A stretch of DNA of 64,000 nucleotides from Thioploca sp. (lineage in GTDB: Bacteria > Pseudomonadota > Gammaproteobacteria > Beggiatoales > Beggiatoaceae). Below the pieces are notes generated by a model, which did no database searches, was not told where the DNA came from, and saw only the letters and a list, made by a program, of their open reading frames with translations. How positions within the stretch are numbered: the stretch's first letter is position 1; each line of letters opens with the position of its first letter. A program made the position numbers and the translations under genes. The DNA is taken from the NCBI GenBank assembly GCA_012032555.1, contig JAAUSR010000017.1:1-64000 (forward strand), in the 5' to 3' direction. Below, one piece after another: positions 61,265 through 64,000 of this stretch.

Positions 61265-64000
61265 TTACTGTTTATCACCTAAGCCAAAGAAACTCTCAAT
61301 TCGGATGAGGAAGCGCTTATAAACGGCATCGGTTTCAACTTCAATATCATGTTGCTCATGGATTTGAGAGGTTGTTGATATCTGTCGCTGTGTTAAGACT
61401 TTACTAATCATTTCAGATACTTCAGGTTCTTCTTCTATCAGCGGCTTAATATCGGTTTTCGTTAACTCAAACAGGTAGGTATCAACTAATGCCACCACTG
61501 TGGCTGTTCTATCTTCACCAGTTAACAGTGCCATTTCACCAAAGAAGTTTCCAGCACCGAGGCGTGCTACTTCTTTATTTTTTCCTTCTTCGGTCATTAC
61601 TTGGACACTAACTACCCCTTCGACAATAATAAATAAGGAATCTCCTCTATCTCCCTGTTTAACAATGGTTTCATGTGCAGAAGTGCGGTGACGACGAATT
61701 CTTTCACTCAAATAAAATTTAGCTTTTTCCGAGAAGGGTTTAAAAATATCGATTTCTTGCAATAAAGTAATCGGTTTAGTCGCTTCTTCCCCACCACGTT
61801 CTTTAACACCTTTAAACCAATGAATTTCTTGACGTTGTACCGCCGGAGTAATGCCAGCACGATTAAGATGAAACCAAACTCGTGTCCAGACATCTTCTAA
61901 TATAAAGAATTTACTGGCATAATCATCCGCACAAAAGGCAATCCAATAACTGGCTGCCCATTCATTGATTCCCGTAAAAATAACGACCGGTTCAGGATCT
62001 TTCAGTACTTTCTCAGCAGACAACAGCGCATCGAGTAAAATTTTTTTCACTCTGGCTGGCGGATGCATCGGATGAACGTAAACGGTTGGCCATAACCAGA
62101 AAGTGTCATCCTGATAACAAAAATTAAGAATGGCTGATTCTGAAGCCATACTATTAGGTATACTCAAAATACAATCCGCTCGGTTTCTAATTCGGGTAGT
62201 TCGCCAAGTAATATCAACAATTTCACCTTCTTCAAATTCACCGATTTTTACCCAATCACCAATTCTAAAGGGCCTTTCTATATTAATGGCAATTCCAGAA
62301 AAGATATTAGAAATATTAATTTGAATAGCTAAACCAATAATCATAGCAATCACACCGGAAGTGGCTAAGATACTGGTTAATTGTTGTTCATAGACAAAGG
62401 CAATAATGCCAACTACCGCTAAAAAGTAAATCAGAAAAGCAAGAAATAAGCGCACAATATTGGGAATAAGACGACCGCTTTTTTCTTCTAATGGCGTCCA
62501 AATAAAACTTTCTGAGGCTAGATTTAACAAAAAGGCGGGGATAATCCACCATAAAATATCAAAAATCCGAATAATTGATTTGATTTCATAAATATCGAGT
62601 CGATCGGCCAGACCTTTTATTAAGAGAACCTCACCGGACAACAACAAAATAAAAGCTAAAATGGCTTGTAAAAACCAAATCAGTTTAGATAAGTGTCTAA
62701 ACTTTCTAACCGTAATATTTAAGACTAAAATGACGATAATACTCGATATCATGAGATTATAAGCATATCGTTCTGGAATGGTTCCTCGCAAGGTAAATTC
62801 GTTTTTCTTAATTTCAATCCCAGCATTAAATCGAGAGTATTCAATTGTTCCACCTTGAACATTCAAATAATTAGGGTCACCTAAAGAGAACTTTTTAGCC
62901 ACATCTTGAAAAAACCGAACTTGATCAAGCAACCAACCGCTAGCAGGACTAAGAACTTGACTTGCTTTCATCGTCTTTAATGGATCGTCTCCCATCCCTA
63001 ATAAATCCGTTACATAAATCAGATTATTGCGGGTAAAATAACGATGGTGAAATTGAACGCCTAAAATATGTTGTTTATAGGCATATTGACTAGTTAAAAA
63101 ATCAGCACGAAACCGACTTCTCACTTTATAAATATGATATTGAATTCTATCTTTTTCTCTGCTATCAATTAGTTTCATGATACCTTGAGTAGCTTTATCT
63201 GTGTTGACTTTATCCTTAGCCCCATCTTGTTGTGTTTCTTGTTTATTATCAATGAATTCCATTTCACCAATCCCATTAGAAAATTCAATTTGTTGTGGCT
63301 TAAATTCTGTTTCACTTTCGGTGTTACTACCCTGAAACCGAAACCATAAATCAAAATCTAAATTAAAGGTTAGGTTTTTAAGATCAAAGTCACTAATTTC
63401 ATTGATTTTAATGCCAGTATAGACTACATTCGTTTTATACATGTATTTGTTATCAATGAGTAACACTCTTTCATCTTGTAAGGCTTGATCAAGATCACTA
63501 ATTTCATTGGGATTTCTGACCACTTGGAATTGGGTTAAAGCGGAAATCAATTGTTTATTTTTGTAGACACCAATGACGACTGGTTTTTGAGCATTCCGAT
63601 TCTCATCAAAATAATTAAAACCGGTGGTTCCCTCTAACGCATCATGGCTATTGGTATAACTAGCTAACTTGTCACGAATTTTCTGGCGATCAATTGCTAA
63701 CGTGGTTGGTTCGCCTTTAATATCAGCTTCACTGATCGCTTTGACTAAAATTTCTGCAGTATCATAGGCATAGGCAGCTGACCAATCCGGTTCCACATGA
63801 TATTTCTGTCGGTAAGCCTCTTTAAAAAGTTGGGCTTTTTCATTAGCGGTATCAAACAACAAGGGAGTAGCAACGTAAATGTCATTGGTATAATGACCGG
63901 GATTCGCTTTTTCTTCCGCAAGATCATTAAAACCATCGACAAAGGTTTGCTCGGAAAAACTGGATTCGCCCAAAATTGGATTAGTAATGCCAGCCGCTTT
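61265..64000 (-). CDS. PBP-ectodomain-MscS-CNBD channel protein, 5' end outside the window
   Basis: A channel-like membrane protein, partial: coding sequence continues past the window edge (KAAGITNPILGESS). Numbering is from the TTG at 63973 (902 residues). 1-152: the end of a type-1 periplasmic binding protein domain (LivK/ANF-like, AAYAYDTAEILVKAISEADI, GTTGFNYFDENRNAQKPVVI). 180-400: a beta-rich segment resembling the ectodomain of pentameric ligand-gated channels (VVYTGIKINEISDFDLKNLT, FNLDFDLWFRFQG, FRADFLTSQYAYKQHILGVQ). Membrane helices: about 403-422, 431-453, 465-487 and 503-528. MscS pore and beta domain: 530-620 (IAMIIGLAIQINISNIFSGI, RPFRIGDWVKIGEF). Cyclic-nucleotide-binding domain: 742-870 with FGEMALLTGEDRTATV. 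MscS-CNBD proteins are known as bCNG channels; the two N-terminal modules are the unusual part. Confidence 0.88.
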   Translation of the reverse strand, partial: KAAGITNPILGESSFSEQTFVDGFNDLAEEKANPGHYTNDIYVATPLLFDTANEKAQLFKEAYRQKYHVEPDWSAAYAYDTAEILVKAISEADIKGEPTTLAIDRQKIRDKLASYTNSHDALEGTTGFNYFDENRNAQKPVVIGVYKNKQLISALTQFQVVRNPNEISDLDQALQDERVLLIDNKYMYKTNVVYTGIKINEISDFDLKNLTFNLDFDLWFRFQGSNTESETEFKPQQIEFSNGIGEMEFIDNKQETQQDGAKDKVNTDKATQGIMKLIDSREKDRIQYHIYKVRSRFRADFLTSQYAYKQHILGVQFHHRYFTRNNLIYVTDLLGMGDDPLKTMKASQVLSPASGWLLDQVRFFQDVAKKFSLGDPNYLNVQGGTIEYSRFNAGIEIKKNEFTLRGTIPERYAYNLMISSIIVILVLNITVRKFRHLSKLIWFLQAILAFILLLSGEVLLIKGLADRLDIYEIKSIIRIFDILWWIIPAFLLNLASESFIWTPLEEKSGRLIPNIVRLFLAFLIYFLAVVGIIAFVYEQQLTSILATSGVIAMIIGLAIQINISNIFSGIAINIERPFRIGDWVKIGEFEEGEIVDITWRTTRIRNRADCILSIPNSMASESAILNFCYQDDTFWLWPTVYVHPMHPPARVKKILLDALLSAEKVLKDPEPVVIFTGINEWAASYWIAFCADDYASKFFILEDVWTRVWFHLNRAGITPAVQRQEIHWFKGVKERGGEEATKPITLLQEIDIFKPFSEKAKFYLSERIRRHRTSAHETIVKQGDRGDSLFIIVEGVVSVQVMTEEGKNKEVARLGAGNFFGEMALLTGEDRTATVVALVDTYLFELTKTDIKPLIEEEPEVSEMISKVLTQRQISTTSQIHEQHDIEVETDAVYKRFLIRIESFFGLGDKQ

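Follow-up and report, generated by a model that had tools for sequence, protein, structure and literature searches.

A pLGIC-type receptor ectodomain on an MscS-type pore: a putative ligand-modulated channel subunit from Thioploca sp. and its relatives in several bacterial phyla

Bacterial cyclic nucleotide-gated (bCNG) channels of the MscS superfamily are built from an MscS pore followed by a cyclic-nucleotide-binding domain (CNBD); Caldwell 2010 and Malcolm 2012 are cited on them in PMC4560390. Among the pentameric ligand-gated ion channels (pLGICs), prokaryotic members with accessory periplasmic domains are described in Tasneem et al. 2004 (PMC549065), namely fusions of a type I periplasmic binding protein (PBP-I) to bacterial ART-LGICs with their own channel, and in two papers on DeCLIC, which has an additional domain at its N-terminus (PMC9897478, PMC12664993). 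Here we analyze a gene on the minus strand at the end of a 64,000-nucleotide stretch of Thioploca sp. DNA (contig JAAUSR010000017.1, positions 1 to 64,000; hereafter the window), which most likely encodes a ligand-modulated MscS-type channel subunit, in which the ectodomains of a PBP-I-fused pLGIC are joined to a bCNG-type cyclic-nucleotide-regulated MscS channel.

In its MscS half and CNBD the window protein is like the bCNG channels, and MscS-CNBD proteins of its bacterial family are among the best matches of that half outside the chimeric build. It differs from them by about 650 residues, forming two sensor domains, that precede the pore; we know of no receptor ectodomains in bCNG channels. 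The combination of a prokaryotic pLGIC ectodomain with an accessory periplasmic domain is shared with DeCLIC. DeCLIC, however, has the four-helix pore usual for pLGICs, and its accessory domain is not known to be of LivK type. The PBP-I-fused ART-LGICs (PMC549065) show the same order of an N-terminal PBP-I and then a pLGIC ligand-binding domain (LBD), and such proteins occur as sisters in the window's family. They keep the four-helix channel, whereas in the window protein PBP-I and LBD are present, the channel domain is replaced by an MscS pore (to which some members of the family add a CNBD), and the Pro-loop has been lost. The terms MscS and mechanosensitive do not occur in the text of Tasneem et al. 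2004 (PMC549065). A search of the open-licence PMC literature, which is not proof of absence, yielded among the hits listed no published description of an MscS pore that bears a pLGIC ectodomain. Such ectodomains are usually regarded as tied to their own four-helix pore; here one stands, together with its PBP-I partner, on a non-homologous one. According to Jaiteh et al. 2016 (PMC4795631), the Pro-loop motif is the best single marker of pLGICs and sequences without it may escape detection, a point with which the present family fits.

The frame at 61265-64000 encodes aa 256-1166 and runs open at the window edge; on the window's own contig (G000:C94) the same frame extends to 64765. It forms a single stop-free open reading frame of 1166 amino acids, so that the binding-protein domain is part of the same gene. 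The domains of the gene described next all lie on the minus strand. Pfam assigns Peripla_BP_6 to aa 31-402 (E 9.5e-33); the whole LivK-type PBP-I domain spans aa 31-415, its window portion being 63521-64000. It is followed by the pLGIC-type ectodomain, delimited by predicted fold and profile match (aa 416-656, 62798-63520), with the Pro-loop position at 63074-63085. These approximately 240 residues between binding protein and membrane are without a Pfam match above cut-off, bPH_1 (E 0.044) being the lone weak one. The membrane helices (aa 658-827, 62285-62794) comprise two extra helices and then MscS-like TM1, TM2 and the pore helix TM3. The beta domain characteristic of the MscS superfamily (MS_channel_2nd, PF00924; aa 818-882, 62120-62314) was found at E 3e-17, and the MscS C-terminal domain (MS_channel_3rd, PF21082; aa 903-972, 61850-62059) barely above its cut-off (21.1 bits versus 21). 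The C-terminal CNBD (cNMP_binding; aa 1028-1112, 61430-61684; E 4.7e-23) contains an intact phosphate cassette (GEMALLTGEDRTAT) of the kind found in bCNG proteins. Hydropathy analysis finds an N-terminal anchor and, in the part linking the ectodomain with MscS TM3, four membrane stretches. In agreement with it, an AlphaFold model of the full-length homologue L009 (1133 aa; pLDDT 81.3, pTM 0.58) has the order N-terminal anchor, clamshell, sandwich, five membrane helices, MscS body and CNBD. The 50 matches listed for this model all have the binding-protein fold and are uninformative on the other domains; the best matches of the clamshell are LivK and LivJ.

The original prediction, made from the letters of the sequence, had proposed a LivK-type N-terminal domain, four membrane helices ahead of MscS, an MscS pore/beta domain and a CNBD with intact phosphate cassette. 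The Pfam assignments, the cassette motif and the clamshell matches confirm this arrangement, as does hydropathy for the helices, with which the homologue model is consistent, and the peptides it quoted were found in the protein. Its assumption of a single polypeptide also held, since the N-terminal domain shares the open frame in the window gene and in its relatives and is not a separate gene.

To the region between binding protein and membrane the original prediction had assigned a pLGIC-like ectodomain, and this was borne out by the predicted fold, a pLGIC beta sandwich, and by the profile match to the sister proteins. An AlphaFold model of aa 416-671 was built from 40 relatives (pLDDT 78.8, pTM 0.75). 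When it was compared with the PDB by Foldseek, the best 50 of 1616 matches were all ectodomains of the pLGIC family (E 4e-9 to 2.8e-8 among these 50), comprising acetylcholine-binding proteins, ELIC, nicotinic receptors and one further bacterial pLGIC ectodomain (3igq). VIA structure comparison gave a Z of 15.5, with 2.5-2.9 A across 159-167 residues, and 6v4a, a pLGIC with an additional N-terminal domain, was aligned at Z 14.7. On the level of sequence, the profile of the chimeric proteins matched that of the sisters over 209 columns with 32% identity (hhalign probability 100, E 3.3e-56), and it weakly matched (3.4e-5) a protein to which Pfam assigns Neur_chan_LBD. Judged from these profiles and models, the middle domain is homologous to pLGIC ectodomains.

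The sisters were recovered with the same ectodomain profile, mostly within the bacterial family of the window. With a length of about 700-870 aa, they consist of PBP-I, the same ectodomain and a C-terminal pLGIC-type channel domain. Their profile matches GLIC-type chains at 6e-21, spanning both ectodomain and channel domain, and trimmed sisters match Neur_chan_memb and Neur_chan_LBD in 16/28 cases each at E<=0.01. Among eight whole PBP-I sisters compared with Pfam, L081 passes the Neur_chan_memb cut-off (28.4 bits versus 28.1). A channel-domain profile made from 27 sisters was tested on intact rows at a threshold of 1e-3. It detected 32/32 pLGIC-pore rows, of which 24 are in the profile by construction, and the eight held-out rows score 2.6e-20 or better; none of the 81 MscS-pore rows was detected (best E 0.26). 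Between the helix region of the chimera and the channel domain of the sisters no relation is apparent (hhalign probability 1.7), and the chimera has no Pfam match to the pLGIC channel domain. Since the four-helix pore is absent and the Pro-loop motif lost, the window protein is not a pLGIC.

A third architecture was also observed (L129 614-4156 and 8861-12469; L145-L149), in which PBP-I and the same ectodomain are followed by a pLGIC-type four-helix domain and an SBP_bac_1 (PBP-II) tail. SBP_bac_1 was assigned by Pfam in two L129 proteins, with which L145-L149 were grouped via tail length and tree; the four-helix domain is assigned by profile match, the two Pfam-scanned L129 proteins being without Neur_chan_memb.

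In pLGICs the Pro-loop ([FY]PxD) and the pre-M1 segment touch the channel domain. These elements were compared in 115 aligned rows that remained after removal of duplicates, of frames open at the 3' end and of ectodomains shorter than about 170 aa. The [FY]PxD motif is present in 0/33 rows with MscS and CNBD, in 1/48 MscS rows without CNBD and in 32/34 rows without an MscS match. L042 and L090, which are motif-less and have no MscS in frame, carry an MscS domain in an adjoining second frame and show no match to the pLGIC channel domain; they are therefore broken MscS-pore genes. With these two set aside, the motif is found in 32/32 pLGIC-pore rows versus 1/81 MscS-pore rows. The window protein has YAYK at this position in place of the motif of its pLGIC-pore sisters. 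When MscS-pore rows are compared with pLGIC-pore rows, the divergence per column amounts to 0.55 for the Pro-loop and 0.52 for pre-M1 versus 0.27 elsewhere (p for the excess 3e-4 and 7e-4, respectively); the p-values given here and below serve as a guide only, since alignment columns are not independent of phylogeny. For the ectodomain strands the mean Jensen-Shannon (JS) divergence between pore types is 0.15-0.35 per strand. Controls between groups of pLGIC-pore rows (20 versus 8 rows, and 20 versus 4 more distant rows) showed no such excess (p 0.55-0.98). The contact surface has diverged after the pore change while the ectodomain core was kept. Two MscS clades also differ from each other in the Pro-loop (p 0.0036) and in pre-M1 (p 0.046), and thus this region seems to have become freer to vary after the pore change. 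The sole MscS-pore row with the motif (L030) is labelled as a Desulfonema limicola metagenome-assembled genome and possibly represents an intermediate state.

Frames were furthermore classed by domain profiles, and trees were built on the two shared ectodomains, leaving out exact ectodomain duplicates, frames short of either ectodomain and seven broken or cut loci (L042, L090, L023, L079, L098, L101 and L104). A first tree separates the whole set of 76 MscS-pore rows by one branch (SH-aLRT 96) from 32 pLGIC-pore rows. A more careful tree of 81 rows, from which six long-branch loci and 19 further leave-out loci were excluded, unites 54 MscS-pore rows (ultrafast bootstrap, UFBoot, 99; SH-aLRT 96) and contains one change of pore type. 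The ectodomain-only tree likewise contains one change, at a starred support of 99. Roots were placed at midpoints for drawing only; that of the careful tree adjoins distant pLGIC-pore rows, which, together with the motif common to other pLGICs, suggests that the change went from the pLGIC to the MscS pore. If proteins of the chimeric build are set aside, the top matches to the MscS half across 13 genomes of the family include four MscS-CNBD proteins (470-516 aa), and the MscS half is by sequence similar to such bCNG-type proteins. Given these matches and a helix region unrelated to the channel domain of the sisters, the PBP-I plus ectodomain unit of a ligand-gated channel seems to have been joined to a bCNG-type channel. 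In bacteria that include many giant sulfur bacteria, a receptor head was apparently transferred to another kind of channel.

Two strict peptide patterns, run against one genome for each of 84,980 species, picked out 44 loci. As labelled in the genome records, 27 belong to Pseudomonadota (21 of them Thiotrichaceae, Beggiatoa-type), 9 to Thermodesulfobacteriota, 4 to Leptospiraceae and 1 each to Cyanobacteriota and Campylobacterota; two are labelled 'Deltaproteobacteria', and their automatic placement in Myxococcota is not trusted. One locus (L038) lies in the complete isolate chromosome of Desulfonema magnum 4be13 (NZ_CP061800.1), which has 8 matches, 2 in long frames and 6 in frames of 708-797 aa, L038 alone being classified. 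Long frames chosen from the 44 loci contain Peripla_BP_6 in 33/33 and MscS (MS_channel_2nd) in 33/33 cases, arguing that the architecture is not due to chance, and a CNBD in 17/33. The ectodomain profile, which detects both pore types, finds matches in 30/42 genomes of the window's family and 40/299 of the phylum. By domain profile both pore types are present in single genomes, e.g. G177, G159, G162, G161 and G165, and further in G180, G181, G183 and G169. The window's own genome holds four copies, one broken and another cut by the contig end; a scan of viral contigs gave no relative. The chimera is a family distributed, by record label, over several phyla and not a one-off. In one frame of 511 aa (L189 1527-3059, G165:C44) the binding protein is missing; the frame contains a signal-like helix, the pLGIC-type ectodomain and MscS.

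Closely spaced matches to the ectodomain profile on the same strand were examined at 15 sites chosen by eye. At 13/15 the upstream gene has no CNBD and the downstream gene has one, the exceptions being L125 (two genes without CNBD) and L129 (a cluster of pLGIC-pore genes). The intergenic gaps are about 31-367 bases in 12/13 pairs and 1355 in one. The window gene sits downstream in such a pair; the gene upstream of it, broken into two frames, has no CNBD (G000:C94, L006 8965-11966). Ten of the upstream copies are united in one clade of the careful tree (100/99) and thirteen downstream copies with CNBD in a second one (99/97), with three more upstream copies (L018, L019 and L026) branching just outside the upstream clade. 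Because upstream and downstream copies form separate clades, the pair is an old duplication kept side by side. The recurrence of tandem genes with and without CNBD makes a channel of mixed CNBD content plausible and suggests that in Beggiatoa-type genomes the CNBD-less product of the upstream gene and the CNBD-containing product of the downstream gene, here the window gene, may form a heteromer. Scans for promoters and terminators around the tandem gene stayed near chance level. As a side observation, the CNBD-less upstream frame of L120 (4856-7939) begins with an S-adenosylmethionine synthetase N-terminal domain near the contig end, perhaps by misassembly.

The phosphate cassette is present in 35/36 CNBD rows, and the window's genome has 20 matches to class III nucleotide cyclases, with two pairs in one frame or adjoining frames. 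Both the intact cassette and the cyclase matches favour a cyclic mononucleotide (cNMP) over c-di-GMP, so that cAMP or cGMP is the likely inner signal. For the window protein we infer channel activity, ligand, gating direction, cNMP binding and stoichiometry, and it would sense ligand, tension and cNMP, as the original prediction had it. A periplasmic small molecule would bind the clamshell and/or the sandwich, perhaps with a second ligand in the sandwich. The resulting rearrangement could be transmitted by the sandwich's C-terminal strand to the first membrane helix and to the helices of MscS, and the movement of the head would either shift the tension threshold or open the TM3 pore. On the cytoplasmic side, cAMP or cGMP at the CNBD may set the gain, and the Beggiatoa-type channel would probably be a heteromer of CNBD-less and CNBD subunits.

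We hold it to be an evenly balanced question whether these proteins constitute a distinct class of receptor channel, in which a pLGIC head controls a heptameric, tension-gated MscS pore via a newly evolved interface and, in the Beggiatoa-type two-subunit heteromer, only one subunit reads cAMP or cGMP. If so, the pLGIC head would operate within a ring whose symmetry is not its own, and a single assembly would integrate a ligand from outside, tension in the membrane and a messenger inside the cell. The occurrence of both builds in single genomes is a natural experiment on the coupling of head and pore, by which five-versus-seven symmetry and the portability of ligand gating become testable. The family also adds a group of likely signalling channels whose middle domain escapes Pfam.

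Several points weigh against the main reading, a ligand-modulated MscS-type channel with ectodomains taken from a PBP-I-fused pLGIC. pLGIC ectodomains are pentameric and MscS pores heptameric, a symmetry mismatch that has to be reconciled, and ligand binding could have been lost. Regarding the fold, TM-scores over the query are just 0.41-0.51 for the 50 Foldseek matches listed, the two models come from shallow alignments of 40 and 33 rows (pLDDT 78.8 and 81.3, pTM 0.75 and 0.58), and the 40-row ectodomain profile alone matches no pLGIC chain in the PDB. Among the eight whole sisters five fall below the Neur_chan_memb cut-off and L085 and L106 have no match, as is also the case for three L129 proteins. 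Regarding the pore change, the tree of the binding protein only needs two changes, the supported (starred) branches forcing just one of them; L030, with an MscS pore and without CNBD, keeps the motif as YPID; and with one of the two MscS clades alone the pre-M1 excess is not significant (p 0.069).

Four other explanations were considered. Metagenome assemblies are the source of many members, and there are broken copies (C94b, L042, L090 and L035), as would be expected if separate genes had been fused by an assembly or gene-model artefact, but identical domain order on many independent contigs, including the complete isolate chromosome, and the four copies in the window's own genome leave hardly any probability for this explanation, which was rejected on account of the independent genomes and the isolate chromosome. 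Convergence of an unrelated beta sandwich towards the pLGIC fold would agree with the missing direct match to solved pLGICs, a four-paralogue profile of the middle domain also finding none in the PDB, and with the missing LBD match in Pfam. As the ectodomain profile alone finds no PDB pLGIC, the strong sequence link depends on the sister proteins as a bridge; however, the match at E 3.3e-56 is to sisters that bear a pLGIC channel domain, and the VIA Z of 15.5 and the weak direct match to the Neur_chan_LBD protein point the same way, so that convergence is largely refuted already and in our view very improbable.

It is unlikely, yet deserves more weight than the two preceding explanations, that the protein is a plain mechanosensitive MscS/bCNG channel whose ectodomains are a passive structural or anchoring relic that no longer takes part in gating. 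The pLGIC coupling elements, Pro-loop and pre-M1 Arg, are indeed lost, and the Pro-loop varies also between two MscS clades. For a passive head, however, decay or frequent loss would be expected, while both ectodomains are kept in all 33 long frames across several phyla, a single clear relative lacking the binding protein was seen (L189), and divergence between pore types is lower for the strands than for the Pro-loop (mean JS 0.15-0.35 versus 0.55). A homomeric channel, with the tandem neighbours acting as separate channels of different pharmacology, is a real possibility, although we rate its chances as somewhat below even. It would account for the partnerless copies in the window's genome (C127, without a partner on the 15.9 kb examined, and C38 at a contig end) and for a second copy being visible within the stretch examined at only about 12/44 loci, but sits less well with the fixed order, CNBD-less first, at 13/15 sites and with the two parallel clades (100/99 and 99/97).

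Two minor observations concern the genome of the window. A further gene (G000:C166:50347-52787, L130 2348-4788) combines PBP-I and the ectodomain with membrane stretches, lacks an MscS match and is divided into two frames. At locus L006, two very similar proteins of 342 and 350 aa (L006 12311-13339 and 17921-18973), presumably resembling Rpn/YhgA-type nucleases, flank a 1441-aa protein with a P-loop-like GEPGSGKT motif.

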